From positions 1 through 25,912 of IMG/VR virus record IMGVR_UViG_3300043436_003770: a stretch of DNA of 25,912 bases. The stretch is one strand, 5' to 3'. Below are positions 1,162-23,405 of this stretch, piece after piece. The translations under genes were made by a program, and so were the position numbers. The stretch is from a virus. The notes beneath the pieces were generated by a model. The model was not told the DNA's origin, did no database searches, and saw only the letters and a list, made by a program, of their open reading frames with translations. Each line of letters starts with the position of its first letter. Within the stretch, counting starts at the first letter, position 1.

Positions 1162-1617
1162 TTATTGTCTGTAATCTTCACCTGATGAATTATATTTCTT
1201 ACCGATATTCTTTTTCATTTTTTTAATTTCCGCTTTCTCGACAAGAGTGATATTGATTTCTTTAACGTAGTGGTTAAAATCTTCATCGGTATGTAGTAAC
1301 TCCATCATCTCTCGATAATACTGTTGCCAGTCTTCTCTACTCATAAAAACCCACTTATCATATTTGTTTCGTATCTCTAATTTTCTTTCTACATACCGTA
1401 AGTAGTATTCATCAGTTTTAGATTCGTATTTTATTCGTGAGGGATTTGGTTCTTTTGGAAGTCCATTAGGAAGTTGATTTCTTTCTAAGCGGCTCTTTGC
1501 TAATTTCTCCTGATATGTTAGGGGATTCCAATAATACCTTCTACCACTCTTTGCTATACGAGGTATTGTTTTTCTATCTTCTTGTGATTTGGGTTTTGGA
1601 CCTCTCTTGTTACTCAT
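1162..1617 (-). CDS. Hypothetical basic phage protein, 151 aa
   Basis: I do not recognise this family. It is a soluble, strongly charged 151-residue protein with no signal peptide or membrane segment. The N-terminus is rich in Lys/Arg/Pro (MSNKRGPKPKSQEDRK) and is followed by a mixed-charge, largely helical-looking body with many Tyr, Trp, Glu and Lys. The start overlaps the end of the sigma-like gene by 8 bp and the stop lies 3 bp before the methyltransferase start, so the three are probably co-transcribed and translationally coupled. The basic N-terminus would suit nucleic-acid contact, but this is only inference. A terminase small subunit is conceivable from its basic character, but no recognisable helix-turn-helix supports that. 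Confidence 0.75.
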   Translation of the reverse strand: MSNKRGPKPKSQEDRKTIPRIAKSGRRYYWNPLTYQEKLAKSRLERNQLPNGLPKEPNPSRIKYESKTDEYYLRYVERKLEIRNKYDKWVFMSREDWQQYYREMMELLHTDEDFNHYVKEINITLVEKAEIKKMKKNIGKKYNSSGEDYRQ

Positions 1618-2152
1618 TCTGAAATGGGTTTTTTATTTCGTTTTGCAGATGTTTCTTTATTTTCTTTATACAACTGAACGTAGTTGATTTACTTATTCCT
1701 ATTTTGTTTGCTACATCCATCATCTTATCATCTGTCATCATATACATTTCAAATATGGTTGCTGGTGCGAATTGTTTGGTAGATTTTAACCGGCTCAATT
1801 CTATTTGAACTCTTTCCCACGTTTCCATTAACTGAATATCTCTATCAATATCGTATTCAATATCAGGTGTATCATACGAAATCATATCCCCTTTGAAACG
1901 AATTCGGTTTCCTTTAATTGCTTTGTTTAAGAAACGAGTTTTTATTATTCTCATACAGTAGATTAAATTGTATGATTTACCCCAAAATACCTTTCTGTTG
2001 GGTTTATTAGCAAGGTAGAGGTATAAATCTCCAACTGCATCTTCCGCGTTCTGTGAGTGTTTAGTAATGTTCGTAGCAACTTGTATCAACCAGACGTGTG
2101 ATTCACTACATAGATTACTCAATCTCCAACTAGCTTCATTATCTAATGACAT
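1610..2152 (-). CDS. Sigma-70-like RNA polymerase sigma factor, phage type
   Basis: Likely a small sigma factor or sigma-like transcription regulator that would redirect host RNA polymerase. At 180 aa it has the two-domain ECF-like layout. Residues about 25-80 resemble region 2: the run NAEDAVGDLYLYLANK precedes an aromatic-rich helix (IYCMRIIKTRFLNKAI), where sigma factors contact the polymerase and the -10 element. A linker of about 50 residues follows. Residues about 140-168 look like a region 4 helix-turn-helix (DKMMDVANKIGISKSTTFS) with a basic last helix. The match is by pattern; the classic acidic core of region 2 is only partly kept, so a non-sigma helix-turn-helix protein is the alternative. 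It lies in the left operon under a host-type promoter, which would suit a gene made early to switch on later ones. Confidence 0.65.
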   Translation of the reverse strand: MSLDNEASWRLSNLCSESHVWLIQVATNITKHSQNAEDAVGDLYLYLANKPNRKVFWGKSYNLIYCMRIIKTRFLNKAIKGNRIRFKGDMISYDTPDIEYDIDRDIQLMETWERVQIELSRLKSTKQFAPATIFEMYMMTDDKMMDVANKIGISKSTTFSCIKKIKKHLQNEIKNPFQNE

Positions 2153-3549: not shown

Positions 3550-3825
3550 CTATTTTGCTGGGATTATTTTATTAAATGTTAATTGTTTAATTATTTTCTG
3601 TAATGTATCTTTCTGTCTTTGGGAATAAGTAGCTGAATGATATAATACTACTAAAAAATCTTTTTCCCAACTATTCAGTTCTTCCTTATATAATTCTAAT
3701 ACCTCTGATATAAAAATTCTTTGTTGTTTAGTAAAAACTAAATTACATTTAACTGATGGTGTATAAGCAGTAAATGATTTTTGATAATTGTTTTTTTTCT
3801 GATTGCTATATCTATCCTTTGCCAT
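3550..3825 (-). CDS. Hypothetical small phage protein, 91 aa
   Basis: Unrecognised 91-residue basic protein. The first 20 residues are Lys/Asn/Tyr-rich (MAKDRYSNQKKNNYQKSF); the rest looks helical, with FTKQQRIFISEVLELYKEEL followed by a second amphipathic helix ending in a Lys-rich tail. It starts 14 bp inside the DUF4373-type gene, so translation is probably coupled to it. It might be a replication accessory protein by context, but nothing in the sequence proves that. A roughly 50-bp non-coding gap separates it from the GIY-YIG gene downstream. Confidence 0.65.
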   Translation of the reverse strand: MAKDRYSNQKKNNYQKSFTAYTPSVKCNLVFTKQQRIFISEVLELYKEELNSWEKDFLVVLYHSATYSQRQKDTLQKIIKQLTFNKIIPAK

Positions 3826-4459
3826 TAGTTTCTAAATTAAATAAATTATCAAATTCATCTGATGAATATATTGGTTTATGATTTGGTATAAAAAAAGAAT
3901 TATTAGTAGTAACTGATTGTTGTAAGTTTTCGGTAGTTTCCTTTACTTTGCTTTCCTTTACTTTGCTTTCCTTTACTTTACTTTCCTTTACTTTCCTTTC
4001 CTTTACTTTACTTTGTGCATTAATGTCTACATAAACTTCATTTAAGTTTTTCTCAAACTCGTTATTGCCAACAAAAACTTCCTTTAACTTGTATATTTGT
4101 GAATTTTCTTTACAATAACCTGTTCTACGAGTCAATACTGTGTCTTCTAACCTATTTGTAAATTTTTCACAATGCAAGTAACCATGCGATAATTGCAATA
4201 AATTTAACTTAATACAATAGTTAATTACTTCGATTAGTTCATCTATATCGCAATCATATTCAGGCAATAACAATTCAATAGTTTCATCATCCCATTTAAT
4301 TTCAAAATATTCAGCATCACCTAATAATTCTAGTGTAATGATATAAATTGCATATCCTAAGTGTTTATACTTCCTACGAAGTGCTTTGATTTTAACATCA
4401 TTTCTCATTTGAACATCATGTGTAAAATACTCAACGTTGTGTTTTTTTGGTCTTGCCAT
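3812..4459 (-). CDS. DUF4373-type (Lin1244/Lin1753-like) DNA-binding protein, putative replication organiser
   Basis: The N-terminal 100 residues match what I know of the DUF4373 / Lin1244-Lin1753 N-terminal domain: MARPKKHNVEYFTHDVQM, then KIKALRRKYKHLGYAIYI, a winged-helix-like module common in phage and plasmid replication proteins. Residues 151-174 are a low-complexity run of the five-residue unit KVKES, also typical of this family, acting as a charged linker. The C-terminal part is Asn/Ser-rich and short. At 215 aa it lacks room for the usual full C-terminal DnaD-like domain, so it may be a reduced form. It is the first gene of the left operon. Its ATG lies only 8 bp after the U-run of a terminator hairpin at 4468-4517, so expression may be attenuated. 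The role in phage DNA replication is inferred from the family. Confidence 0.78.
   Translation of the reverse strand: MARPKKHNVEYFTHDVQMRNDVKIKALRRKYKHLGYAIYIITLELLGDAEYFEIKWDDETIELLLPEYDCDIDELIEVINYCIKLNLLQLSHGYLHCEKFTNRLEDTVLTRRTGYCKENSQIYKLKEVFVGNNEFEKNLNEVYVDINAQSKVKERKVKESKVKESKVKESKVKETTENLQQSVTTNNSFFIPNHKPIYSSDEFDNLFNLETNGKG
3938..4009 (-). repeat. 15-bp tandem repeat encoding KVKES units
   Basis: About five imperfect copies of a 15-bp unit encode KVKE(R/S) repeats in the DUF4373-type gene. Each unit is a multiple of three, so gain or loss changes linker length without breaking the frame. On the plus strand it reads as repeats of CTTTACTTT with TTCCTTT. Confidence 0.9.
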
Positions 4460-4645: not shown

Positions 4646-4677
4646 CAAATATACGAATAATAATTGGTATTTCCAAA
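4646..4677 (-). promoter_or_regulatory. Bacteroidota-type promoter driving the left operon
   Basis: On the minus strand TTTG (4677-4674), a 20-bp spacer, then TATATTTG (4653-4646). This is a full match to the Bacteroidota primary-sigma consensus TTTG-N19/20-TAnnTTTG. Expected start is near 4639. It lies just after the terminator at 4688-4716, so it insulates the left operon from upstream transcription. Confidence 0.75.
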
Positions 4678-4687
4678 TTTATTTTAC

Positions 4688-4716
4688 AAAAAAACCCCTA
4701 GTCGAATGACTAAGGG
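4688..4716 (-). terminator. Rho-independent terminator
   Basis: On the minus strand CCCTTAGTC (4716-4708) pairs with GACTAGGGG (4703-4695) over nine base pairs with one G-U. The loop is ATTC, and a run of seven T (4694-4688) follows. It is a second stop about 115 bp after the bS21 terminator, which is odd unless a transcript starts between the two. Confidence 0.85.
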
Positions 4717-4805
4717 TAAACACGTAATGGTAATGGATATTACCGTAAGGAAGCGATTACGGACGAAATGGCATTAACGCCGTAATCTATAATATATATG
4801 CGATT
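4688..4805 (-). ncRNA. Candidate small structured RNA between two terminators
   Basis: This stretch has no ORF but has compact structure on the minus strand: an 8-bp perfect stem GATTACGG/CCGTAATC (4787-4780 with 4762-4755) with two further possible C-G pairs inside, a 6-bp stem GGTAAT/ATTACC with a four-base loop (4744-4729), then the terminator at 4688-4716. A possible -7 element lies just upstream at 4812-4819. The order promoter, stems, terminator is that of a small RNA gene. I see no tRNA features. The alternative is the decayed 3' region of the bS21 transcript. Confidence 0.35.
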
Positions 4806-4811
4806 ATTTTT

Positions 4812-4819
4812 CAAACGTA
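4812..4819 (-). promoter_or_regulatory. Possible -7 promoter element
   Basis: The minus strand reads TACGTTTG, a full match to TAnnTTTG, directly after the U-run of the bS21 terminator. No TTTG is found at the proper -33 spacing, which overlaps the terminator stem, so this is a half-site only. Confidence 0.3.
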
Positions 4820-4830
4820 ATTTGGGAAAT

Positions 4831-4863
4831 AAAAAAGGGAATGATTTTACACATCCCCTTTTT
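4831..4863 (-). terminator. Rho-independent terminator after bS21 and the late block
   Basis: On the minus strand AAAAAGGGGATG (4863-4852) pairs with CATTCCCTTTTT (4843-4832) over 12 bp with one G-U. The loop is TGTAAAAT, and the arm itself ends in six T (to 4831). It begins 10 bp after the bS21 stop codon and closes the long leftward structural block. The A-rich 5' arm would also allow weak plus-strand function. Confidence 0.85.
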
Positions 4864-4872
4864 ACTTTAGCA

Positions 4873-5076
4873 CTACTCTCCCACAATCCTATTTTTATTT
4901 TCTCTATAAATGGCATCTTGTTTCTGTAATCGCTTTAAAGTTGAAGGTTTTACAAAATGTTTTCGTTCTCTTAACTCCATTAGATGACCACTGATTTCTA
5001 CTTTCTTTTTGAACAGTTTTAATGCTTTCGCTAAATCTCCATTCTTTACTCGTACTCCTACTAATTTTACTCCCAT
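4873..5076 (-). CDS. rpsU: Phage-encoded ribosomal protein bS21
   Basis: A 67-aa small-subunit ribosomal protein of the bS21 family. The diagnostic core is ALKLFKKKVEISG at 18-30, then ELRERKHFVKPSTLKR at 34-49, matching the family pattern of a basic helix, LR-R, and (E/F)-KP-(S/T). It would bind near the 3' end of 16S rRNA on the 30S platform and could replace or supplement the host copy. Tyr57 aligns, by my recollection, with the tyrosine of Bacteroidota bS21 (Tyr54 in Flavobacterium) reported to contact the sequestered anti-Shine-Dalgarno. It is the last gene of the late block, 62 bp after its neighbour and 10 bp before a strong terminator. The leader (ATACAATATAACGTT) has no Shine-Dalgarno sequence, unlike host Bacteroidota rpsU genes as I recall them. 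bS21 genes are known in other aquatic phages. Confidence 0.93.
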   Translation of the reverse strand: MGVKLVGVRVKNGDLAKALKLFKKKVEISGHLMELRERKHFVKPSTLKRLQKQDAIYRENKNRIVGE

Positions 5077-5138
5077 AACGTTATATTGTATTTTTAATTT
5101 GGGTTTGACTTAGCCGGTCGAAATTAACTCGTGTGAGT

Positions 5139-5267
5139 TTATCTGCCCTGTCCTTGATATCTCTTTAACTTTTGTTCTTTTGGTCCTACTGATTTCTTAC
5201 CAATAGGATGTTTTTTTCTTTTACCAAAATTCAGTTTGGTTTGTGATGCGGTGGGTTTCTTAGCCAT
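5139..5267 (-). CDS. Small basic phage protein, 42 aa
   Basis: A short ORF starting MAKKPTASQTKLNFGKRKKH and ending in KLKRYQGQGR. It is very rich in Lys, Arg, Gly and Gln and has no hydrophobic core, so it is probably an extended nucleic-acid or structural accessory protein. Short phage proteins ending in a similar K-Y-x-GQGR tail are familiar to me from Bacteroidota phages, but their function is unknown. Its ATG shares one base with the stop of the upstream 28-aa ORF (TAATG), a classic coupled junction and the main support for both. A 62-bp gap follows before bS21. Confidence 0.6.
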   Translation of the reverse strand: MAKKPTASQTKLNFGKRKKHPIGKKSVGPKEQKLKRYQGQGR

Positions 5268-5644: not shown

Positions 5645-5959
5645 TTATTCTTCCTTTTTATCAGGTATGCAATTTGGTACGAGTCTACCACCATCACCCT
5701 CTTTCATTCCATATTGAGTATAACCTGCAGTGCAAGGGTCATCATCTTCGAAACGGTATTTAAGTTTAGTTCGGTATTCGTTCATTTGAAAAATATACAG
5801 TTCTTGTGCAGACATCCTTTGACCTCTAGCATCTCTTAGTGTTGAGTAACAGACTGCAACTGCTTGAGTTGTATCATCATATTCTCCACCTATTTCTGAC
5901 ATACAACGTGAAATGTACTCTTCTTCTCTTTCACCTTTATTTGGTTCTGGTATTGGCAT
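5645..5959 (-). CDS. Conserved-type phage hypothetical protein with four cysteines, 104 aa
   Basis: Starts MPIPEPNKGEREEEYISRCM and continues with AVAVCYSTLRDARGQ, a pattern I recognise as common in phage proteins near or fused to capsid proteases; its role is unknown to me. Cysteines are at 19, 37, 76 and 97. The C-terminal half contains PCTAGYTQYGMK and RLVPNCIP, suggesting a second small module possibly held by a disulfide or metal. It precedes the membrane/coiled-coil gene with a one-base gap. Upstream, the plus-strand homing endonuclease separates it from the rest of the late block, so it was probably once next to the 6550-6876 gene. Confidence 0.72.
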   Translation of the reverse strand: MPIPEPNKGEREEEYISRCMSEIGGEYDDTTQAVAVCYSTLRDARGQRMSAQELYIFQMNEYRTKLKYRFEDDDPCTAGYTQYGMKEGDGGRLVPNCIPDKKEE

Positions 5960-5968
5960 GTTATTTTA

Positions 5969-6000
5969 TTTGGAATTATCAAATATTTTTCGTATCTTTA
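5969..6000 (+). promoter_or_regulatory. Bacteroidota-type promoter of the plus-strand endonuclease
   Basis: TTTG (5969-5972), a 20-bp spacer, then TATCTTTA (5993-6000), which matches TAnnTTTG in all but the last base. The expected start is near 6007, about 24 bp before the ATG at 6031. It is correctly placed for the only plus-strand gene. Confidence 0.65.
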
Positions 6001-6030
6001 CTATTATTAACAATTAAAGATGAAAAAGTT

Positions 6031-6549
6031 ATGAAGGCATATTACATTTATCACATACCAGGAGTTAAAATTGGTTGTTCTAAAAACCCTAAACAACGTG
6101 TCAAAACACAAGGATATTCTACCTTTCAGATATTAGAAACTCATACTGATATTGATATTGCAGCCGATAGAGAAATTCAATTACAAAAACAATATGGTTA
6201 TAGAGTAGATAAAGGAAATGAATTATATAGTAATAAATTTTCTAATATGGGTAAAAGTGCAAATGCAAAAGGCAATAAAACTATGATTGAAAATAAAATT
6301 GGTATATTTGGTGCATCTAACGAACAAAGAAAGTTATGGGCTAAAAATGCATCTAATATTGGTGTTGCAATTAGTGCTGATAAAAGACGTGGCCAGAAAC
6401 TAAATCAAGAAACAATTGATAAAATGAAACTTAATAATCATGTGCACGTTTTGAAAAATATTACAAAAAAATGTGAACATTGTTCTATGGTTATGAATTT
6501 AGGAAATTATGCTAGATGGCATGGTGATAACTGTAAAGGTAAGAAATGA
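6031..6549 (+). CDS. GIY-YIG homing endonuclease with C-terminal zinc finger, antisense to late block
   Basis: A 172-aa homing-type nuclease. The GIY-YIG domain is at the N-terminus: YYIYHI at 4-9, VKIGCS at 12-17, Arg23 as candidate catalytic Arg, and Glu48 in ADREIQLQKQYGY. A modular DNA-binding stretch of NUMOD3 type follows at about 87-115 (GIFGASNEQRKLWAKNAS). The C-terminal finger C148-x2-C151...H164-x3-C168 lies in the typical context NYARWHGDNC. I chose the ATG at 6031; the in-frame upstream extension to 5839 is hydrophobic antisense of the neighbour and crosses the promoter. It is the only gene on the plus strand. Its stop abuts the stop of the 6550-6876 gene, so it looks like an insertion in the late block. 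It is AT-rich even by local standards. Confidence 0.85.
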   Translation: MKAYYIYHIPGVKIGCSKNPKQRVKTQGYSTFQILETHTDIDIAADREIQLQKQYGYRVDKGNELYSNKFSNMGKSANAKGNKTMIENKIGIFGASNEQRKLWAKNASNIGVAISADKRRGQKLNQETIDKMKLNNHVHVLKNITKKCEHCSMVMNLGNYARWHGDNCKGKK

Positions 6550-6876
6550 TTATCTTACTTTATAGGTTACACCAAAGATTTCTATTTTGGTAATTAAATC
6601 ATATACAAACGTTCTGTATCCACCAGCATCCATTGCATAAAATATCATATAGCCTAATGCAGCATAGTTATATCCCACACCAGGATTACGTGAAGGTCCC
6701 TGAAAAGTAAATACTTCTCGACCATCATATTGTTCGCCATCTAAGGTTTCACCCCATATTTTAAGTGGAACGTTTTTATTAGTTAGAGTTAGAGTTCTCA
6801 ATCTCCTTACAGAAATTTCTTGTTCTCCGTTTCTAAACTCCTGAATACGATTGTATATTTTATTAGTTAAGTTCAT
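6550..6876 (-). CDS. Hypothetical phage protein, 108 aa
   Basis: Unrecognised soluble protein. It begins with an amphipathic helix (MNLTNKIYNRIQEFRNGEQE), then a beta-rich body with a Gly/Asn-rich centre (GPSRNPGVGYNYAALGY) and a terminal KIEIFGVTYKVR strand pair. No membrane segment is present. It starts 14 bp after the protease-like gene and ends back to back with the plus-strand endonuclease. By position it may be a minor structural or assembly protein, but no motif supports a specific role. Confidence 0.68.
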   Translation of the reverse strand: MNLTNKIYNRIQEFRNGEQEISVRRLRTLTLTNKNVPLKIWGETLDGEQYDGREVFTFQGPSRNPGVGYNYAALGYMIFYAMDAGGYRTFVYDLITKIEIFGVTYKVR

Positions 6877-6890
6877 TTTATTTCTTAATA

Positions 6891-8054
6891 CTATTTTGGT
6901 AGTTCTTCTTTATGATATAAGTACTCACTATCTTCTGTATGTACCTCACCGGTCATTAGTCTACCATCTGCATCTTTATGAGTAGGGCCTTCGTATAATT
7001 GACCATCTGCTGTATAATGTGGTACACCTACTTTTAACTCTAATTCACCTAATTCTCTTAATTTATTTCTACTCCAACTTAATGCAGATTTACCACCCCA
7101 TAAGAGGTATGATATAGTACCACAAGCAGTAGTATCACTTTCATCATAATAAGTTTCAGCTCTACTTAGGTATGAGTACATCCTCTTAATAGTATCTAAT
7201 GAAATCCCTTCACCATTTGCCAATTGTTGTGCTCTTACTTTACCTACTTGTGTTGCACACTTATTATTTACTTTATCATTTAGTTCAATACCTCTTTTTG
7301 CATTGTTACGGATTGATACTCCATAATCACTATATGATTCTAATTTATCTTTTTTTTTTTTACTTACTTCACCTGGGTAGGTTGAATTTATAGAAGGTTG
7401 AACTCCTTCTAATTCTGTATCTGGCATTAAAAGTGAATGAATTAACTCCAATAAATTCTTTGCTTCTGTTTCATCCAAATCACTAATTTGTTTAGAGAAT
7501 AGATTTTTAGGTTTAGATTTTGCTTCAATATGTTCTGCAATCATTTCAACTGAAAAGCCTTTTACTTCACCCGATTTTATCTTATTCCAAATTTCATCAT
7601 TTTCTACTTTATAGACACCGAACCACGTTCCTCGTGGTAGAGTAAATCCATATGAGTTTGATTTATCTTTTGCTGATTGGTCTATTAACCAACTTTCAGT
7701 TAGATACACACCCTTTACTTTTGAATTACCATGCTCAATTGTCATCTCATTGTTTAGTTTATTCTTCATAAACTTGCGAGACATTTCTTCAATTGTTTTT
7801 TCAGAAAAGAATATTGCATAAGGTTTGCCTTCAAAATCTGCTCTAAGTATTTTCTTATTTGGTATGAGTAGTGGTCCAGCCACCAATCTTTTTTCATCAT
7901 CTACTGATTGTAGATTTACAATCTCTTTATTAAAAAAGATAAAATCTCTTTCAATCGCAGGAGCTGAAACTAATGAATTACTATAAACGCCATCTTCTTC
8001 ATCTTGAAGTATCAGTTCGTATAGGTCTAATTGGTCTAGTTCTTTAAGTGTCAT
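6891..8054 (-). CDS. Prohead protease-like protein (Peptidase_S78_2/XkdF type) with extra C-terminal domain
   Basis: Residues about 55-172 resemble the XkdF-like Peptidase_S78_2 domain: VAGPLLIPNKKILR, IFFSEKTIEEMSRKF, TIEHGN with His108, VYLTESWLI, GTWFGVYKV and GEVKGFSVEM with Ser168. His108 and Ser168 are the candidate catalytic pair. The protease would cleave scaffold and capsid during head maturation. Residues about 241-340 form a second domain (RIELND-like helix, CATQVGKVRAQQLANGEG, YLSRAETYYDE, YLLWGGKSALSW), a C-terminal module I have seen fused to such proteases. The two are joined by a linker with four Lys encoded by 12 consecutive A. Its place after the tape measure gene, far from the capsid gene, is unusual. 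Confidence 0.82.
   Translation of the reverse strand: MTLKELDQLDLYELILQDEEDGVYSNSLVSAPAIERDFIFFNKEIVNLQSVDDEKRLVAGPLLIPNKKILRADFEGKPYAIFFSEKTIEEMSRKFMKNKLNNEMTIEHGNSKVKGVYLTESWLIDQSAKDKSNSYGFTLPRGTWFGVYKVENDEIWNKIKSGEVKGFSVEMIAEHIEAKSKPKNLFSKQISDLDETEAKNLLELIHSLLMPDTELEGVQPSINSTYPGEVSKKKKDKLESYSDYGVSIRNNAKRGIELNDKVNNKCATQVGKVRAQQLANGEGISLDTIKRMYSYLSRAETYYDESDTTACGTISYLLWGGKSALSWSRNKLRELGELELKVGVPHYTADGQLYEGPTHKDADGRLMTGEVHTEDSEYLYHKEELPK
7350..7361 (-). repeat. Homopolymer of 12 A in the protease-like gene (slippage-prone)
   Basis: Twelve T on the plus strand give AAA x4 (Lys232-235) in frame on the minus strand. The sequence after the run is GATAAATTAG. Gaining one A reads AGA TAA; losing one reads ATA AAT TAG. 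Both shifts stop within three codons and would leave a protein of about 237 residues with the protease domain only. Confidence 0.95.
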
Positions 8055-10311: not shown

Positions 10312-10341
10312 CAAAATTATTTAGAAAAATAAGGGAACTAA
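10312..10341 (-). promoter_or_regulatory. Weak possible promoter before the tape measure module
   Basis: The minus strand has TAATTTTG (10319-10312), a full match to TAnnTTTG, 12 bp before the small ORF start. The -33 partner is TTAG (10341-10338), one mismatch with an 18-bp spacer, so it is below standard. It could give the tape measure module its own transcript. Confidence 0.25.
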
Positions 10342-11015
10342 GGGAGTTGTGACCAGTAATCTTCTCTGAATTTAGGTTCTAAATAGATTATTCCGGTTTC
10401 AGTATTCGATTCATCGGTTCTTTTGTATATTTCTTCATTCGGTTTATCACCCATACCCGATATGTGATACACACCCATACCCCATCGGTATATCATAGAA
10501 TACCTACCCGTATTGCCAGTATGTATCTTTCCATTCGTCATAAAGGTTAGCCAATTATCTTCACCAATAGATTTATCAACCATATTGATTCCTTTAATCC
10601 ATTCACTCCTATATGCGTTACCATTATTTACTGAATCAGAATAGTCCTGATATTGGTTGTTGGAAAAGAAGTAATGTTTTTGACATCGGTATATATCACT
10701 ATTCGGTGCTTCCCTATGATATTCTCTTTGTAGTTCCAATGCCCATGACGTTAGTAAATCATCATCATCTAAACGGAATATCACATCACCTTTGCATTGT
10801 GTAAACCCCCACTCTAATTTTTTGCCAACTGAACTAAATCTTTTGTTTAGATTTATTATCTTTACTTTTGGGGTATCAATTCGGTATTCTACATAAGTGC
10901 AATCGTTTATGATTACCATTTCAGCATCTTCTAATTCGGTCTGATTTAGAAACGAATAAATTGCTTCCTCTAAAAGGTCTTTTCTTTGGTAGGTTAGTGT
11001 TAGTACGGATATCAT
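10338..11015 (-). CDS. Glycosyltransferase family 2 (GT-A fold)
   Basis: A 225-aa GT2-like enzyme. It starts MISVLTLTYQRKDLLEEAI, the standard GT-A opening (hydrophobic strand, T-Y, then helix with SFLNQT). VIINDCT follows at about 34-40, and the metal/nucleotide-sugar DXD site is present as RLDDDDLL (Asp83-86). It lacks membrane segments, so it is cytoplasmic. It would transfer a sugar from a nucleotide donor; acceptor and sugar are unknown. It overlaps the next gene upstream by 4 bp (ATGA) and is the last of four tightly coupled glycosyltransferase-like genes placed directly downstream of two Thr-Pro repeat virion genes, which makes virion glycosylation a reasonable guess. Confidence 0.88.
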   Translation of the reverse strand: MISVLTLTYQRKDLLEEAIYSFLNQTELEDAEMVIINDCTYVEYRIDTPKVKIINLNKRFSSVGKKLEWGFTQCKGDVIFRLDDDDLLTSWALELQREYHREAPNSDIYRCQKHYFFSNNQYQDYSDSVNNGNAYRSEWIKGINMVDKSIGEDNWLTFMTNGKIHTGNTGRYSMIYRWGMGVYHISGMGDKPNEEIYKRTDESNTETGIIYLEPKFREDYWSQLP

Positions 11016-11632
11016 AATTTATTCCATTCCCTTTCATCTTCAACAGATATTTTTACAAATTCATTTCGAGATGCAGTTCGCGATAATCCCCACGGGTGTG
11101 GTTCGGTTTCGATTTGGATACCAGTTATCATCCAACCACCAATTTCTCTTAATAACCAATCATCTCCATATGCTACTTTTAAGGTTGAAGGTATAGGTTT
11201 CCAATTGGTTTTATGTACAAATAATAAGCATCCCCATCCCCAACCTCTTTTATCTAATTTATGCAGTGAGTATTCTCCACCACCATAATAGTTTTTACCA
11301 TCTTGTCCTATAATTCCTAAATGTAAGTTTTCATTTATATATGGCAGGCAATTTACATCCCAAACTAAATCATCATTTGATATACAAATGTTTTCATAAT
11401 TGGATAATTCAACCCCTAAATTCCATGCAGGATTGACAAAGATGTTTTCCTCTTGTTCTAATAGGATTATCTTATCAGTTGAACTGATTTGAGCGGGTCT
11501 CCTTGATTTATTATTATCAATTAGTATAATCTCACCAACATCAGGTGAAGACTCCAAGAGAGGTAGGGATTTAAGTATTTTATCTGAATACCACATCGTA
11601 GGTATTATTACAGAAAATTTATTTCCATTCAT
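11012..11632 (-). CDS. Glycosyltransferase family 2-like protein with altered DXD
   Basis: A 206-aa protein with a GT-A-like start (FSVIIPTMWYSDKILKSLPL), then EIILIDNNKSRRP at about 34-46. The segment FVNPAWNLGVELSNYENICI is the typical GT2 run before the DXD site, but the site here reads SNDDL (Asn86-Asp87-Asp88) instead of a full DXD. Many family members tolerate such variation, so activity is possible but not certain. The later segment GWGWGCLLFVHK and GDDWLLREIGGWM fit the acceptor-side half. It overlaps its neighbours by 4 and 14 bp. No membrane anchor is seen. Confidence 0.8.
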   Translation of the reverse strand: MNGNKFSVIIPTMWYSDKILKSLPLLESSPDVGEIILIDNNKSRRPAQISSTDKIILLEQEENIFVNPAWNLGVELSNYENICISNDDLVWDVNCLPYINENLHLGIIGQDGKNYYGGGEYSLHKLDKRGWGWGCLLFVHKTNWKPIPSTLKVAYGDDWLLREIGGWMITGIQIETEPHPWGLSRTASRNEFVKISVEDEREWNKL

Positions 11633-12602
11633 TTATTTTACATTTTACGAAATCATATATCCATGTAGATACGGAATACGTTTTAGAGTAATCTAATTCT
11701 TCAAACCATTCCACTTTTTGGTCTTTTGAATGCAACCATAAGTGGGATAGATTCGGATACTGTTGGGTTACTGTTTGATAAAATCCCATTGCAGTTTGCA
11801 AATCAGTTTTATATTCACCCCATGCTTGTTCATTAACACCAGGTAGTCCTTTCCATATTTCACACATCTCTCCACCAAACGCACATCTATCCCAACCTGA
11901 AGAATGTGCAACAAAATCTTCAAACAGATAAAGAAGGGTTAAACCGTAGTTCCATTCCGCTTTCCATTCCGAAATTCTATTGATGCAAGTTTCATTTGTT
12001 AGTGATTGCCAACTGAACTCTCCGCCAATCCAAACTATTTCTTCATTCCCTATGAACTTTGGGTTAGTAATTAAATCCCAAATAAAATCGGATTTTGGTT
12101 TCCAATTCTGCCAACAATCATTACGTGGAAAAGTGTTTATATTTTCCCAGCCTGGTATTTCTCGTACCCTACCTGGAACACATTGACTATCCCCTATTTT
12201 ATTGTAAAAAGAAGTATGTGGGTCATAACTTCTACAAATCAAATTGGGTGTATTGGATATGGGATTTATTCCTAAATCATCCGTATCAATATAACTACCA
12301 CCAAATTGCCATAATAAAACTAAACGGAATAGGTCTGAAAAATCACGAGGGTTTGTTCTCATATATTTTTCAACCTTTTCAGCAGGTATCGGTACTCCAT
12401 CAAAAAATGATTTATCCCATTTATGAACCTTTATCTGAAATTTACTATCTAATTCGTTTTGTTGTATGGTATTGGAAATCAATACAATAGGTTTATTTGG
12501 ATTCCATACTCTGGTTGAGTATATGGAATCAGTTAGGATTTTCATTCGGGTAGGAGTTATTCCACCATCCCAATAAAAAAATATAGTGTTTATATCAAAC
12601 AT
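11619..12602 (-). CDS. GT32-like (DXD, OCH1/toxin-type) glycosyltransferase
   Basis: A 327-aa protein from ATG at 12602 (MFDINTIFFYWDGG). An in-frame ATG at 12644 would add 14 residues and a longer overlap, so I prefer the shorter start. The signature is RDFSDLFRLVLLWQFGGSYI followed by DTDD at 106-109, as in the Gly_transf_sug / GT32 group, where S/A-D-x-x-R-x-x-x-L...GG-x-Y-x-D-x-D binds the nucleotide sugar and metal. N-terminal WDGG with PIVLISNTIQQNEL fits the first GT-A strands. The C-terminal half is Trp-rich and unassigned. It overlaps the adjacent genes by 13 and 14 bp. Confidence 0.85.
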   Translation of the reverse strand: MFDINTIFFYWDGGITPTRMKILTDSIYSTRVWNPNKPIVLISNTIQQNELDSKFQIKVHKWDKSFFDGVPIPAEKVEKYMRTNPRDFSDLFRLVLLWQFGGSYIDTDDLGINPISNTPNLICRSYDPHTSFYNKIGDSQCVPGRVREIPGWENINTFPRNDCWQNWKPKSDFIWDLITNPKFIGNEEIVWIGGEFSWQSLTNETCINRISEWKAEWNYGLTLLYLFEDFVAHSSGWDRCAFGGEMCEIWKGLPGVNEQAWGEYKTDLQTAMGFYQTVTQQYPNLSHLWLHSKDQKVEWFEELDYSKTYSVSTWIYDFVKCKINEWK

Positions 12603-13531
12603 GATGTCTTTGCTGTAGTTTGAACCCAATTCCAATAGTGCCATGATGCGGTTTCCTTTTTAGGTTCTTCTGCCGTATTGTAGGGTAATGTATTCATCCA
12701 TCTACCTTTATAGAATAGGTCATCCATAGTATTTAAAACCCCTGCGTTATGGAATATATTAAACCTATTCCAATCATTTTCAGTATGCGTTCCCCAACTA
12801 AAATCAAAGTTAGGATGACAAATGGTTTTCTTTCCCATTTTCCAACCACCCCATAGTACTGACCACATATCTGAACACCATATTTGTATGGCATGATATT
12901 TTGGGTCATCTTTAACTTTTTGTACATTTAATTCAGTAACCCATTTGAACATCAATTCGGAATCCCATTCAACTCTTTCCCAATACCAATTGGTAATTCC
13001 TTTCATAAGATATTGAGCCCCTATGCAATTTACGTTATTATCTTTAAGTAGGTCTTTACTAATACCTGCTATTTCAGACATTAAGTCCAAAACATCATCA
13101 CCTTTTTGTTTGATGTAATCATAAGAAATGTAGGAGTTTGTATCACTGCCATACCAATTATCATCGGTTAGCATTTCATCAGTAATCCAATCTTTTGGGG
13201 GTTTTGTAAGGAGTATATCACAATCGTGATAAAGAATTACTTCATCTTTTAACTCTGGAAATCTTAACCAATGTTGTTTAAGAATATTTGGTCTAATAGA
13301 TGAAACATAATGTTTGGTTACACGAGTATCTTTATAGAAAAGAAATCTTGCGGGATAGCCTTTAGCTAGTTTTAACCAATCTTCAGGTATCCCATCTTCT
13401 CCAATACTACAAACAATATCAATTTTATTTGGGTTTACACCCATTTGGATAAAATTGTTTAACATAGTCTCAACTTGCCAACTGTAATAAGGAATAGCAG
13501 GTTGAGCACAAATAAATCTTAAATTTTTCAT
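12590..13531 (-). CDS. Putative glycosyltransferase with DCD motif
   Basis: A 313-aa protein that starts MKNLRFICAQPAIPYYSWQV and carries a DXD-like site, YHDCDILLTKP (Asp103-Cys-Asp105), after a hydrophobic strand EVILY. This is the GT-A arrangement, and later CIGAQYLMKGI fits the post-DXD region of many GT-A enzymes where the acceptor binds. The C-terminal third is Trp- and His-rich (NIFHNAGVL, SWHYWNWV). The family is not certain; by layout it resembles large phage-encoded proteins annotated as glycosyltransferases. It is the first of the four-gene cassette and begins 40 bp after the Thr-Pro repeat gene, with no hairpin in between, so all may share one transcript. Confidence 0.7.
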   Translation of the reverse strand: MKNLRFICAQPAIPYYSWQVETMLNNFIQMGVNPNKIDIVCSIGEDGIPEDWLKLAKGYPARFLFYKDTRVTKHYVSSIRPNILKQHWLRFPELKDEVILYHDCDILLTKPPKDWITDEMLTDDNWYGSDTNSYISYDYIKQKGDDVLDLMSEIAGISKDLLKDNNVNCIGAQYLMKGITNWYWERVEWDSELMFKWVTELNVQKVKDDPKYHAIQIWCSDMWSVLWGGWKMGKKTICHPNFDFSWGTHTENDWNRFNIFHNAGVLNTMDDLFYKGRWMNTLPYNTAEEPKKETASWHYWNWVQTTAKTSCLI

Positions 13532-13570: not shown

Positions 13571-14956
13571 TTAAACAAGTATATTAAATCCATCAATCGG
13601 GTTAGGAGTTACATTACTAAGAGAGGCGTTTACAAATGTTTCAAAATTAGGGTCAAATCCTGTCAAATAAACTTCATTTTGACCTATGGTTATAGTTGCT
13701 GTTCCACTTGATGACCCGGCTGGTGATACATCTACTGACCAATCAAATGATAAATTTTGAGTAAATGTTTCTCCATTTTCAACTGTTACCCAAATTTCAG
13801 TAAAATCCGGGTCATCTGTTCTTTGTTCAACAGTTAAAGATAAATCAATTAATGCTGAAGTAGTTGTAGTAGTTGGCGTATCCGTTGGAGTAACTGTTGT
13901 AGGTGTAACAGTTGTAGTTGGACACGTACCTCCGCAATCAAATACATAATCTAAATCGTCTGCTCCAGGACCTGATAATGTTCCAGGTCTAATACAAATA
14001 AATTCGCCTACCTCAACTTCAAAATCATAATAATAAGTACCATCACAATCTTGATAATTAACGGTTTGGGTATCAAACGAATTGTTGTAATATTGCTGAC
14101 ATGTATAGCAAGGTGTTTCAGTCGTTGTTGTTGGTGTATCCGTAGGAGTTACTGTTGGCGTTACAGTAGGTGTAACCGTTGGAGTAGCCGTAGGAGTTAC
14201 TGTTGGCGTTACAGTAGGTGTTAAAGTTGTAGTTGTAGGCGTATCAGTCGGTGTAACCGTTGGTGTAGCAGTTGGCGTAACCGTTGGAGTAGCCGTTGGC
14301 GTTAAAGTAGTCGGTGTATCCGTAGGAGTTACTGTTGGTGTTACAGTCGGAGTAGCCGTAGGTGTTAAAGTAGTTGGTGTCGCTGTAGGAGTAACAGTTG
14401 GTGTTAAAGTTGTAGTTGTAGGTACATCAGTTGGTGTAACCGTAGGTGTAACAGTAGGTGTAACAGTAGGAGTAACAGTTGGTGTTAAAGTTGTAGTTGT
14501 AGGTACATCAGTTGGTGTAACCGTAGGTGTAACAGTAGGTGTTAAAGTTGTAGTTGGTGTATCTGTTGGAGTTAAAGTTGTAGGCGTATCAGTTGGAGTA
14601 ACGGTAGGTGTTACAGTTGGAGTAACGGTAGGTGTTACAGTTGGAGTTAAAGTAGTTGTTGGAGTTAAAGTAGTTGTTGGAGTTAAAGTAGTTGTTGGCG
14701 TTAGAGTAGTAGTAGGAACTGGCAGTACCTCTTTAACTACATCATTTGAACAAACATCTGATGTATTTTGTAACTTAATACAAATAGTATCATCAGGCAC
14801 AGTTACTATAGCAGTAGAACCAGGACCAGGTAAATAGACATCATTACCATCCATAGACATTGTAAAGTTAATACAATCGTTTGAATAGTATATATCGTAA
14901 AAATCTCCTGAATTAAACCCTTTTTCTGAAAGGGTTATTTGTTTTAATATTGCCAT
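13571..14956 (-). CDS. Thr-Pro repeat virion protein, 461 aa (putative tail fibre/adhesin)
   Basis: Modular protein in three parts. Residues 1-80 are a small domain (GDFYDIYYSNDCINF, STAIVTVPDDTICIKL) of the type found in Bacteroidota phage structural proteins. Residues about 81-281 are an uninterrupted low-complexity run of TPT, TVTPT, TATPT and TTLTPT units: Thr/Pro-rich, mucin-like and probably extended. Residues 282-345 hold a cysteine-rich domain (CYTCQQYYNNS, FICIRPGTL, FDCGGTCP). After a short second linker, 380-461 look like a beta-sandwich (DLSLTVEQRTDDPDF ... WSVDVSPAG). There is no signal peptide, consistent with a virion part assembled in the cytoplasm. It lies between tail genes and the glycosyltransferases. 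A receptor-binding role is inferred from context. Confidence 0.75.
   Translation of the reverse strand: MAILKQITLSEKGFNSGDFYDIYYSNDCINFTMSMDGNDVYLPGPGSTAIVTVPDDTICIKLQNTSDVCSNDVVKEVLPVPTTTLTPTTTLTPTTTLTPTTTLTPTVTPTVTPTVTPTVTPTDTPTTLTPTDTPTTTLTPTVTPTVTPTDVPTTTTLTPTVTPTVTPTVTPTVTPTDVPTTTTLTPTVTPTATPTTLTPTATPTVTPTVTPTDTPTTLTPTATPTVTPTATPTVTPTDTPTTTTLTPTVTPTVTPTATPTVTPTVTPTVTPTDTPTTTTETPCYTCQQYYNNSFDTQTVNYQDCDGTYYYDFEVEVGEFICIRPGTLSGPGADDLDYVFDCGGTCPTTTVTPTTVTPTDTPTTTTTSALIDLSLTVEQRTDDPDFTEIWVTVENGETFTQNLSFDWSVDVSPAGSSSGTATITIGQNEVYLTGFDPNFETFVNASLSNVTPNPIDGFNILV
14114..14716 (-). repeat. Tandem repeat array encoding Thr-Pro units
   Basis: About 600 bp of imperfect 6-, 12- and 18-bp units based on GT(T/A)GG(T/A/C)GT(A/T)A on the plus strand, coding for about 200 Thr/Pro/Val residues. 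Longer blocks are also duplicated: the unit ending in GTAGGTACATCAGTTGG appears twice, near 14430 and 14505. Related units recur in the upstream gene. Confidence 0.95.
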
Positions 14957-14972: not shown

Positions 14973-17309
14973 TTAAGGACAAGGTGTTTCAGTTATAACA
15001 GATACTGGACCTGATGGTAAAGGACTTCTTTCAAAATTATATACCATAAATGGTTTACCATCTGATTCTGCTGTATAATTTCCTTGCCATTGCTCAAGGC
15101 CTGTTACTTTTTGAAATGCACCAAAATCACCATTTGAAAAAGCAGTTGTTAATGATGAATTTTTATATGCAGGCGTGCCAGTTGTATTTTGGTTAGCCCA
15201 AGTAAAATTATAATAAGCATATGCTTGTTGTCTTGGATAGAAAGAACCAGATTGTTGATTATAATACAAATCAGAAGTACTTGTACCTGCTCCACTACAT
15301 GGAGAAGATGGTATAGATGTACCATTTATATTGTTAGTACTTTTTTGATTGATTGGTAACGTAATTTTACTATCTAATCGATGAACCCATGCATTTGATG
15401 ATGAATTATAAGTATCAGCATCCAATCTAACTATTTGTCTATTATTATTAAATTCAGCAATATAGAATCTGTTAGCAGGAATATTTACTTGATATCTTGT
15501 ACTATAATCAGTATTATAAGCAGGTACTCTAGCAAAACCATTTTCCATAAGACTTTGAGACTCTAATAATATACCAATAGTAGCAGCAATACTTCCTGAT
15601 GAAGTTAAATAAGGTTTAGCTAATGTATATGATGCAAAACCATTACTACCACTCATGTTATATAAAAGTAAATCTCTATCAACTGATGGTTTAATTTCAA
15701 CACTTCTAGTTACACTATTCCATAATGATGCACTCCAAAAACCACCACCATTCCAGAATACGGGTTGAGTAGATATACCACCATTACCTAAATATGAACT
15801 TGAAATTGGTGCTAATCCATTATCATATGTATCTACTATAACTACATCATAATAATTACTACCGCCTTGAGTTACTCCAATAGAATTTGAACCTGATTTA
15901 AATCCTACTTGAAAAATAAATGGTGCTATTGAACTGGTCATATTAAAACTTGTTGAAAACGAAGTATTAGAATTAGCAGCAATAGTTTGAGAACCAGTCA
16001 TAGCAGTTCCACTTCCAGTAATATATACATTCATACTAGTATCTACTGAATATGGATTATTTAAAGATGATGATATATCAAATTTAAAATTTCTACTCAA
16101 TGAAGGTGTAGTTGTTGTGGTAGTTGGAGTAGCAGTTGGAGTCAAAGTAGTAGTACCAGTAGTACATACAGTGCAAGTTATTATATCTGAACAAGTTTCA
16201 TTACATTCAATTGGGAAATTTAATCCAGGCTCTCTAAATATAATTGTACCTGGTTCAACACACAAACTAACTGTTAAACCACCACCAACTGGAATTGTAG
16301 TTTCAGCTGAATTACATGGTGTATAAGTTACATCCAACGTTTCTTCCGTAGGATTTTCAACTGTATAACATCTACAAGGTGCTTCAGTTGTAGTTGGTGT
16401 TAAAGTTGTAGTTGGTGTTAATGTAGTAGTAGATACACCTGGACATTCAAATTCACCCGTTGTAGTAAGTGTTAATAAACCACCGCCCGGGTCAAATGAT
16501 AATTCACCTATAATAATGAAAGTATAGGTAATTCCACCAGCAGTAGCAGTTACTCTTTCTCTATTAGCAAATGTACCACCTGGGTATTGTATTGAATAAA
16601 AAGTATTCGCATCATCACATCTTTCTAACACATACCAAACTGGTGCCAGTGTAGTTGTAGTTGGTGTTAAAGTTGTAGTTGGTGTTAATGTAGTTGTAGG
16701 CGTTAATGTAGTTGTAGGCGTTAATGTAGTTGTAGGCGTTAAAGTTGTAGGAGGTATATAATCTATCACATCAAAATTAAACGAACAATCTATATCTTTT
16801 GTAAATGTATCTGGAATAATCGGTCCTAATAACTGAATATTACATACACCAGTTTTTAAGTTATATTCATTTATTGCACGTAAGTGATAATAATTACCTC
16901 TCCATTGTACAATATCATTTAATTCCATCTTAAAATAATCCGCAAGAGGTATGATTGCTGATGCATTAATCAAACGTGTCTTTGGATTATATAGTAGAGT
17001 AACGTATGTTTCCCAATATTCAGTATATAAACTACCCGTTGGTGTTTCACCAAACGCAGGTTGTTCTGGATTAAATAGTAGTGAAAGTGATGATGATGTA
17101 GGTGTATTCCCACTCACATTATCAAAATATGGAAATGAATTTAGTGCACTACTACTTACTGCTGTTTTTGTACCATCAGTAAATCCCTCTACAAAAAATG
17201 TATTAGTAGCTTTCGTTCCATTATAGAAATAGACGTGAGGTAGTACTCTTACTGGTTCGTAATTTATAGAACTAATGAAAGTTGGTATATATATCGCGTT
17301 TAATCCCAT
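14973..17309 (-). CDS. Large modular tail protein with Thr-Pro linkers, 778 aa
   Basis: Residues 1-185 look like a virion-attachment domain (YEPVRVLPHVYFYN, DIVQWRGNYYHLRAINEY, CNIQLLGPIIPDTF). A TTLTP linker covers about 186-222. A small domain at about 223-291 (VWYVLERCDDANTFYSIQYP) is followed by a second linker, and then a cysteine domain at 311-374 (CRCYTVENPTEETLDV ... SLCVEPGTIIF ... ECNETCS). A third linker leads to a Ser/Asn-rich C-terminal domain of about 375 residues that should be beta-structured and ends MVYNFERSPLPSGP. This is an N-anchored, distally displayed layout, fitting a receptor-binding or baseplate-attached fibre. It lies 16 bp before the sister Thr-Pro gene, 1 bp after the preceding tail gene. 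Confidence 0.78.
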   Translation of the reverse strand: MGLNAIYIPTFISSINYEPVRVLPHVYFYNGTKATNTFFVEGFTDGTKTAVSSSALNSFPYFDNVSGNTPTSSSLSLLFNPEQPAFGETPTGSLYTEYWETYVTLLYNPKTRLINASAIIPLADYFKMELNDIVQWRGNYYHLRAINEYNLKTGVCNIQLLGPIIPDTFTKDIDCSFNFDVIDYIPPTTLTPTTTLTPTTTLTPTTTLTPTTTLTPTTTTLAPVWYVLERCDDANTFYSIQYPGGTFANRERVTATAGGITYTFIIIGELSFDPGGGLLTLTTTGEFECPGVSTTTLTPTTTLTPTTTEAPCRCYTVENPTEETLDVTYTPCNSAETTIPVGGGLTVSLCVEPGTIIFREPGLNFPIECNETCSDIITCTVCTTGTTTLTPTATPTTTTTTPSLSRNFKFDISSSLNNPYSVDTSMNVYITGSGTAMTGSQTIAANSNTSFSTSFNMTSSIAPFIFQVGFKSGSNSIGVTQGGSNYYDVVIVDTYDNGLAPISSSYLGNGGISTQPVFWNGGGFWSASLWNSVTRSVEIKPSVDRDLLLYNMSGSNGFASYTLAKPYLTSSGSIAATIGILLESQSLMENGFARVPAYNTDYSTRYQVNIPANRFYIAEFNNNRQIVRLDADTYNSSSNAWVHRLDSKITLPINQKSTNNINGTSIPSSPCSGAGTSTSDLYYNQQSGSFYPRQQAYAYYNFTWANQNTTGTPAYKNSSLTTAFSNGDFGAFQKVTGLEQWQGNYTAESDGKPFMVYNFERSPLPSGPVSVITETPCP
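16383..16435 (-). repeat. Thr-Pro linker repeat 2
   Basis: A short array of TTLTPT units between the second small domain and the cysteine domain of the 778-aa protein. It shares its unit with the larger arrays at 14114-14716 and 16643-16752. Confidence 0.85.
16643..16752 (-). repeat. Thr-Pro linker repeat 1
   Basis: Tandem TTLTPT units of 18 bp encode residues about 186-222 of the 778-aa tail protein. Several copies are near identical (GTTGTAGGCGTTAATGTA on the plus strand), which suggests recent expansion. Confidence 0.9.
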
Positions 17310-22130: not shown

Positions 22131-23405
22131 TTATATTGTTTCGTAATTTTTGTTAAAGAACCCACCTCTTATACCTGAAGAAAGTACATCTTCATTTTCA
22201 TTTGATGCATCCGCTTCATCATCAGTAGTTGCTGGAGTTTCTAATGATTTGTTTGTTTCATCTTCTACTTCCGCAACTGTTTTATCAGTTTCTTCTGCTT
22301 GTTCAGAAAGGATTGCAAGTGGTGTAGTTTGTTCAAAGTATAATTCCATATTATCCCAACCACCTTCACTTAGGGCCATATCTAATTGATTTAGTATTAA
22401 ACCCTGAAAAGGTTGAATAGTCATAGTTTGAAAAATAGAAAAGGCTGTTTTCATTTCTTCACTCTGTGAACTAAACCCATTATTTGCAGTACGAATACCG
22501 AATAGTAGTGGTGATGTAACCCTATGTGCAACAAGTATTCTGTCCTGTGCATACTCTGCTACATACTGAAACTTCTCATGTAGATTATCAATCTGTATGA
22601 CATCAATCGTTGGTTTAGTTGCAGGGTCATCATTAAATGATAACATAAACTTACCAGCATTGGATGTTCCAGTAAATTTAGAATACAATAAGTTCTCTAT
22701 GGTTTGTCTTTCTTCTGGTGCCGGAACTCCGTTGTTCATATTCAACATAATAGCGGGCAAGAATCCATTTTCTATGTTGTTAAGGTGTAAGTTACTCAAC
22801 TCACCCTCAACTATCGAAAATTGGAATGCTGGTATCCAATCTGGAAGTGAATAATAGTATAGACCTGGTGAATAGTTTTTAATGAAAAGGATTTCTGATT
22901 TTTCAGTTGATGTTCCAAATGCTGGATACTTAACCTTATCTTTTACTTTACGATGGTCTGACCAATCAGTACAATAGTAGTAGTTTTCAATACGTGGATT
23001 ATCATATATCTTTTCTGCCCTAATAGTATGAATAGGAACGTGATAGAATTTCTTTATCTTTGTGTGGTCATCATTCCAAATAACTTGATATACTGCATTA
23101 CCAAATAATTTCAAATCAAATGCAACTCTCTTAGTTTCTTCTTGTGGAATTAACTTTTGAATTATCGCATTCTTTGTTTCATCTTTTGAATAAATTCCTT
23201 TACCAAAGATTAAATCAGCAATACCTTCTACACATGCAGCATTAGTTGAACTAATATTATATGCGGTAGTTACTGCTTGAAAAAAATCATCCTGGTCATT
23301 TATACCATAAGGCACCCAAGATTGACGAGTTTTAGTATCCTCTATAATAGTTGGTATTTCATTATTACCATATGATAGGACTGACAGTTTGGTTTGGTTC
23401 TTCAT
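22131..23405 (-). CDS. Portal protein
   Basis: A 424-aa portal protein of HK97 type. Support: the N-terminal ITTAYN-like segment with CVEGIADLIFGKGIY, a central wing region, KRVAFDLKLFGNAVYQVIWN, and IVEGELSNLHLNNIENGFLP. Near the C-terminus is the clip/stem-type run RVTSPLLFGIRTANNGFSSQ followed by EEMKTAFSIFQTMTIQPFQ and a helix to LNQLDMAL, a familiar portal signature. The last about 50 residues are acidic (AEVEDETNKSLE) and low complexity. It forms the dodecameric DNA channel at the capsid vertex. It follows the small 120-aa gene by one base. In most phages the portal gene precedes the capsid gene; here it is downstream of it. Confidence 0.88.
   Translation of the reverse strand: MKNQTKLSVLSYGNNEIPTIIEDTKTRQSWVPYGINDQDDFFQAVTTAYNISSTNAACVEGIADLIFGKGIYSKDETKNAIIQKLIPQEETKRVAFDLKLFGNAVYQVIWNDDHTKIKKFYHVPIHTIRAEKIYDNPRIENYYYCTDWSDHRKVKDKVKYPAFGTSTEKSEILFIKNYSPGLYYYSLPDWIPAFQFSIVEGELSNLHLNNIENGFLPAIMLNMNNGVPAPEERQTIENLLYSKFTGTSNAGKFMLSFNDDPATKPTIDVIQIDNLHEKFQYVAEYAQDRILVAHRVTSPLLFGIRTANNGFSSQSEEMKTAFSIFQTMTIQPFQGLILNQLDMALSEGGWDNMELYFEQTTPLAILSEQAEETDKTVAEVEDETNKSLETPATTDDEADASNENEDVLSSGIRGGFFNKNYETI

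Follow-up and report, generated by a model that had tools for sequence, protein, structure and literature searches.

The 25,912-nucleotide stretch of viral DNA analysed here (the window), which is a 25.9-kb IMG/VR virus record, carries a gene for the ribosomal protein bS21 with an equivalent of Tyr54 of Flavobacterium johnsoniae bS21 and a leader that lacks a Shine-Dalgarno (SD) sequence. The preferred reading, to which we assign a probability of about 0.6, is that this is a bS21 of phage lineage, whose accessory gene comes last in the virion-gene transcript of a small tailed phage, probably of Bacteroidota, and that its Tyr57 would keep the anti-SD tucked away and so favour SD-less messages. 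The interpretation given in a first-pass annotation of the same DNA is partly supported.

The gene is a 67-amino-acid open reading frame (ORF) on the minus strand, which begins with ATG and has no further in-frame start upstream. Its identity as bS21, already named in the first-pass annotation, is confirmed by matches to PF01165 Ribosomal_S21 (E 3.5e-15, 55.9 bits against a cut-off of 27, profile positions 2–53 of 55) and to PHROG 21469, "ribosomal protein S21" (E 1e-9), and by matches to solved structures. The top structure matches are bS21 in 9i5v (E 4e-8) and F. johnsoniae bS21 in 7jil (E 4e-7), and E. coli bS21 is matched more weakly (E 3.5e-4). In the scan of the record the bS21 signal has an E value of 1.6e-16, and chance is ruled out. 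The model predicted from an alignment of the window and locus proteins has helices at residues 15–29, 31–37, and 44–66 with a mean pLDDT of 83.6, and a structure search with it gave weak matches only, every one of them a ribosome entry.

Compared to F. johnsoniae bS21, the phage protein has four more N-terminal residues and one fewer ahead of helix 1. Its Tyr57 corresponds to F. johnsoniae Tyr54 in the pairwise HMM alignment and in three multiple alignments, so that the tyrosine which the first-pass annotation placed at the anti-SD-contacting position is found there in every alignment made. Tyr54 of F. johnsoniae bS21 stacks on A1534 of the 16S rRNA (PMC9976891), and an aromatic residue at this position is the Bacteroidia-type feature linked to anti-SD sequestration. 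The residues at positions 21, 23, 25, and 28 are K, V, I, and H; they differ from F. johnsoniae bS21, and these positions have been named as divergent in phage bS21 (Chen 2022, PMC9723584). Position 25 is written as Asp by Chen 2022 (PMC9723584), where the 7jil sequence used here has Lys.

Table 1. Features of the window that bear on the bS21 gene and its surroundings
Feature	Position	Strand	Basis
Weakly sigma-factor-like protein, candidate late-transcription regulator	1610..2152	-	PHROG 1740 E 1.3e-6
Lin1244-like replication initiation gene that opens the next transcript	3812..4459	-	Pfam/PHROG profile matches
Bacteroidota-type promoter-like site TTTG-N20-TATATTTG, between terminator and replication gene	4646..4677	-	motif search
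Second intrinsic terminator, 10-bp stem, T run	4687..4717	-	fold of 4680-4725: z -4.6
First intrinsic-terminator-like hairpin, directly 3' of bS21	4831..4863	-	fold of 4815-4875: -16.3 kcal/mol, z -3.4
bS21 (ribosomal protein S21) gene, 67 aa	4873..5076	-	PF01165, PHROG 21469, PDB bS21 matches, three-helix model
Tyr57 codon, equivalent of F. johnsoniae bS21 Tyr54	4906..4908	-	alignments; Tyr54 role from PMC9976891
bS21 leader, A-rich, no SD, no notable fold	5077..5138	-	duplex +0.7 kcal/mol; fold z -0.53 (5070-5140)
42-aa Lys/Arg-rich ORF ending GQGR	5139..5267	-	shared by bS21-bearing and bS21-less relatives
Gene with DPC...GYTQYG...VPNC motif, syntenic with bS21	5645..5959	-	synteny across relatives
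Head maturation protease (Peptidase_S78_2/XkdF)	6891..8054	-	Pfam/PHROG profile matches
Portal protein, used to place the phage	22131..23405	-	PHROG 33693 E 6.9e-65; Nonlabens phage P12024S 35%

Almost every gene of the window lies on the minus strand, in the order capsid, portal, tail proteins, tape measure, maturation protease, the genes at 6550–6876 and 5645–5959, a holin-like gene, the 42-aa gene, and bS21. The maturation protease is about five genes upstream of bS21, which places bS21 in the proximity of a prohead protease. On its 3' side, bS21 is followed by two terminator-like hairpins, the TTTG-N20-TATATTTG site, and the replication gene. Two sites of this promoter-like form were found in the window against 1.15 expected by chance, an excess that is weak alone; L203, L205, and L218 have comparable sites that overlap with the terminator. 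The surroundings of bS21 have an identical order in L203, L205, L206, L207, and L218 (L204 being the same phage type as L205), and terminators follow bS21 in the window and in all of these five loci except L207. Four portal relatives that cover the site (L485–L488) have no bS21, and in L485 the terminator lies directly 3' of the 42-aa gene. Because bS21 is present in some relatives and absent from its site in these four, it is, as judged from gene order, an accessory last gene before the terminators in this group of small phages, a placement that is new here. Its position at the end of the virion-gene transcript makes late synthesis plausible, and the description of the protein as late-made in the first-pass annotation can be kept at that strength.

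The 42-aa basic ORF has no Pfam or PDB match and no PHROG match at E below 0.2, and its role as a second ribosomal protein is therefore unsupported by these searches. It is kept as a gene ahead of the terminator, or ahead of bS21, in several relatives; a special tie to bS21 was rejected because relatives without bS21 retain it. The sequence DPCxxGYxQxGxKxxDGxxVPNC or a close form of it occurs both in the product of the 5645–5959 gene and in unrelated proteins that adjoin bS21 in T4-like phages (L216, L219, and L241).

Only 3 of the 31 leaders in the window reach −6 kcal/mol or lower, compared to 10 of 31 mock sites (Wilcoxon p 0.0097), which amounts to SD avoidance, and the avoidance is clearer when five loci of related phages are taken together with the window (p 1e-6). 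The Flavobacterium phage immuto likewise avoids SD sequences, whereas the Microcystis phage Mel-JY01 shows the opposite. The gene set is siphovirus-like, and the portal shares 35% identity with its counterpart in Nonlabens phage P12024S, which has a genome of 35.7 kb; P12024S/L are the sole portal relatives among annotated phages. A search for prophages in Bacteroidia genomes by portal or capsid gave weak matches or none. Owing to the SD avoidance and the Nonlabens-phage-like portal, a Bacteroidota host, as assumed in the first-pass annotation, is likely.

A search with the phage bS21 as a single sequence recovered no viral or phage-record relative, although alignment-based queries did recover viral bS21 relatives. 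In the main tree, in which 126 sequences over 65 columns form a short alignment with uncertain deep branching, the window bS21 falls within a phage-only clade of ten (support 99/96, branch 0.66). Small siphovirus-like members of this clade are L083, L086, L087, and L207, and members from larger phages are L208, L210, L216, L219, and L231, those read being T4-like. A split (99/91; 99/94 in a second tree) separates proteobacterial and pelagiphage bS21 from the Bacteroidota side, where the clade lies, and the clade is retained in the second tree, from which column 54 was removed (99/88). It lies outside the 99/89 cluster that contains 57 of the 60 Bacteroidota host sequences, and over these 65 columns the protein is thus not placed inside Bacteroidia host bS21. 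The first-pass annotation had named a position outside Bacteroidota bS21 as evidence against its proposal; the placement obtained is a border case, being on the Bacteroidota side of the deeper split and outside the host cluster. Since the clade is outside the host cluster, the window bS21 looks like a long-standing phage version rather than a recent host capture, and it has probably passed from phage to phage. The bS21 of L121 hardly differs from Chryseobacterium-like host sequences, and this locus probably represents host or prophage DNA.

These placements bear on a simpler explanation, which we consider possible but hold with reserve: when translation demand is high, the phage copy would only supplement a ribosomal protein that is loosely bound and exchangeable, and initiation would not be specifically affected. 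Such a role would suit an accessory gene at the end of a transcript that is missing in four relatives with the site covered, and loosely held ribosomal proteins are favoured by viruses (Mizuno 2019, PMC6375957). On the contrary, the long separate branch of the phage-only clade suggests more than a copy, and the protein has residues that are rare or unseen in sampled hosts, such as His28.

The first-pass annotation had further proposed that the phage gene, which it described as having no SD in its leader, escapes the autoregulation of host rpsU. The description is borne out by the SD pairing energy of +0.7 kcal/mol, which means no pairing, and an extended SD stronger than −13 kcal/mol, the mark of an autoregulated rpsU, is absent from this leader as well as from all 85 distinct viral bS21 leaders. 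Host rpsU carries an extended SD and is autoregulated in F. johnsoniae, and the SD is strong where present (McNutt 2023, PMC9976891). Among 38 rpsU leaders sampled evenly across the order Flavobacteriales, 5 (13%) had a canonical extended SD, three more were of a Chryseobacterium-like type with an altered anti-SD, and 30 were neither; only 12% of rpsU leaders reached −13 kcal/mol in an even sample of the class Bacteroidia and 57% among hosts chosen for their similarity to the window, all of these fractions being approximate because many sampled genomes are probably MAGs with anti-SD tails unchecked per genome. The lack of an SD as a mark that separates phage bS21 from host rpsU is therefore largely rejected (p 0.02 against the even Flavobacteriales sample), and to call a phage bS21 gene SD-less says little, since many hosts' rpsU genes are SD-less also. 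An extended SD cannot safely be assumed for the rpsU of this phage's host. Because most of the sampled Flavobacteriales and Bacteroidia rpsU genes lack it, escape from host autoregulation is host-dependent and holds for some possible hosts only.

It is accordingly unlikely that the main role of the gene is to escape rpsU autoregulation while its altered N- and C-terminus re-select messages for the phage. The SD-less gene itself and the K, V, I, and H residues in the region reported as divergent (PMC9723584) would fit such a role. Against it, both the genes of the window phage and the majority of rpsU genes in the even host samples have SD-less leaders by default, the phage messages resemble ordinary SD-less Bacteroidota messages so that special selection is unneeded, and Tyr57 is retained. 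With the equivalent of Tyr54 kept, the anti-SD is predicted to stay locked, which argues against the turn toward SD-led messages implied by the change of message choice in the first-pass annotation.

In 73 viral bS21 genes, an aromatic residue 54 belongs to SD-avoiding phages in 34 of 37 cases and a non-aromatic one in 6 of 36 (Fisher p 2.7e-11, with related rows treated as separate). Tree-aware pairing leaves three to five independent contrasts, with which a sign test cannot be significant, and for this reason the association is a lead, not proof, even though it is a new comparative result. The window's own clade holds both states, with Tyr or Phe54 in the SD-avoiding siphovirus-like members and Arg54 in the SD-using larger phages. 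In the larger Arg54 sister phages 66 of 116 leaders reach −6 kcal/mol or lower, compared to 21 of 116 mock sites (57% vs 18%; p 2e-7). Exceptions are Met, Lys, or Arg54 in the SD-avoiding phages L098, L332/L333, and L319. The T4-like phages L210–L243 carry an SD on roughly half of their genes, and the bS21 gene is SD-less in the lineages seen except L208/L209. The plainest cause of the association is host type. Infection of Bacteroidota by some of the Arg54 phages is conceivable, as the capsid of one of them (L213) is about equally near a Flavobacterium phage and a Microcystis phage (52–53%), but their SD use resembles that of the Microcystis phage. The association also fits a phage bS21 that acts in the ribosome and a residue 54 that matters there. 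A bolder proposal, which at present is decidedly doubtful, is that phage bS21 is an anti-SD setting tuned to the phage's messages, with, in a single phage-only lineage, a locking aromatic residue where these are SD-less and Arg54 where they use an SD. If it were true and an Arg54 phage infected Bacteroidota, its bS21 would unlock the anti-SD; SD-blind host ribosomes would then be switched to SD-bearing phage messages by an Arg54 bS21 that is itself mostly made from SD-less leaders.

In the preferred reading, in which Tyr57 keeps the anti-SD tucked away, bS21 would be translated from an A-rich start that lacks an SD, together with the structural proteins, and would occupy the loosely held bS21 place on the host 30S subunit. 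Via Tyr57, the 16S anti-SD tail would stay tucked away, and the ribosomes may thereby remain in the state best for SD-less messages, which are the phage's own. Where host rpsU has an extended SD, the added bS21 would presumably also lower host rpsU. Loss of bS21 or of its C-terminus makes F. johnsoniae ribosomes poorer at initiating on SD-less mRNA and better at initiating on rpsU (PMC9976891), and in other Bacteroidetes phages bS21 is co-expressed with structural genes (PMC9723584). Several points stand against the mechanism: host bS21 is already normally present, the residue-54/SD association loses significance when the tree is taken into account and has exceptions, and phage bS21 may inhibit a foreign ribosome, given that pelagiphage bS21 is incorporated into E. 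coli ribosomes and leaves translation at ~5%, that is, nearly abolished (Mizuno 2019, PMC6375957). It is nevertheless highly improbable that the window bS21 slows or poisons host-type initiation or works outside the ribosome, because E. coli is a mismatched host for the pelagiphage protein, the phage needs translation late, and the core and Tyr57 are conserved.

Ribosomal proteins are often encoded by phages, and the substitution of host bS21 by a phage copy in Bacteroidota is an idea already in print and thus not new (PMC9723584, PMC9976891, PMC6375957). Chen 2022 covers bS21 of Bacteroidetes phages, including the aromatic residue 54, the divergence at the N-terminus, the gene neighbourhood, and the late expression (PMC9723584), and McNutt 2023 describes rpsU autoregulation and remarks on phage bS21 (PMC9976891). 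The freshwater Bacteroidetes phages of Chen 2022 and the window have in common a bS21 with an aromatic residue 54 and a divergent N-terminal helix, set apart from bacterial bS21 and encoded near the prohead protease and structural genes (PMC9723584). In contrast, those phages are myoviruses whose genomes reach 331 kb and whose bS21 and structural genes lie on opposite strands (PMC9723584), whereas the window is small and siphovirus-like, outside the large T4-like genome type, with bS21 as the last gene on the same strand. Residue 54 is aromatic in 61 of 61 sequences of Chen 2022 (PMC9723584), while the close relatives of the window bS21 include Arg54. The T4-like phages L208–L243 (IMG/VR) have bS21 proteins up to ~61–65% identical to that of the window in a shared phage-only clade (99/96), and differ in their Arg54 and SD-using genomes. 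F. johnsoniae bS21 (7jil) shares the family and Tyr54 with the window at a core identity under 50%, and its rpsU has an extended SD where the phage gene has none. The pelagiphage Kolga EXVC016S (48.7 kb) is, like the window phage, a small tailed phage with an annotated bS21, but it has a Pelagibacter host, a bS21 of the pelagiphage/alphaproteobacterial type, and another gene order.

The kind of gene is therefore known, and what is new is its accessory last-gene place in a small-phage group together with the residue-54/SD lead; a literature search found no study that compares phage bS21 leaders or ties residue 54 to phage SD use. In one bS21 lineage the anti-SD lock holds Tyr in some members and Arg in others, and their phages avoid or use SD sequences; the group thus offers a compact natural experiment. 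Reporters for SD-led and SD-less messages exist in F. johnsoniae (PMC9976891), and the effect of phage bS21 and of its residue 57 is hence directly measurable.

Other features of the window and its relatives were also seen. Four successive ORFs lie amid the tail genes at 10338–13531, of which three match glycosyltransferase families and the fourth has no Pfam match, and the tail-region proteins encoded at 13571–14956 and 14973–17309 bear long Thr-Pro repeats (TPTVTPT). In the 62.6-kb L025 contig, the maturation protease and the sigma-like gene are both duplicated, ~31–32 kb apart, perhaps because the assembly joined two related genomes. The ORF at 5839–6549 on the plus strand, opposite to its neighbours, has a GIY-YIG-like sequence (YYIYHIPGVKIGCSKNP) and perhaps encodes a homing endonuclease, and a similar ORF lies near the corresponding place in L082 (765–1253, minus strand).
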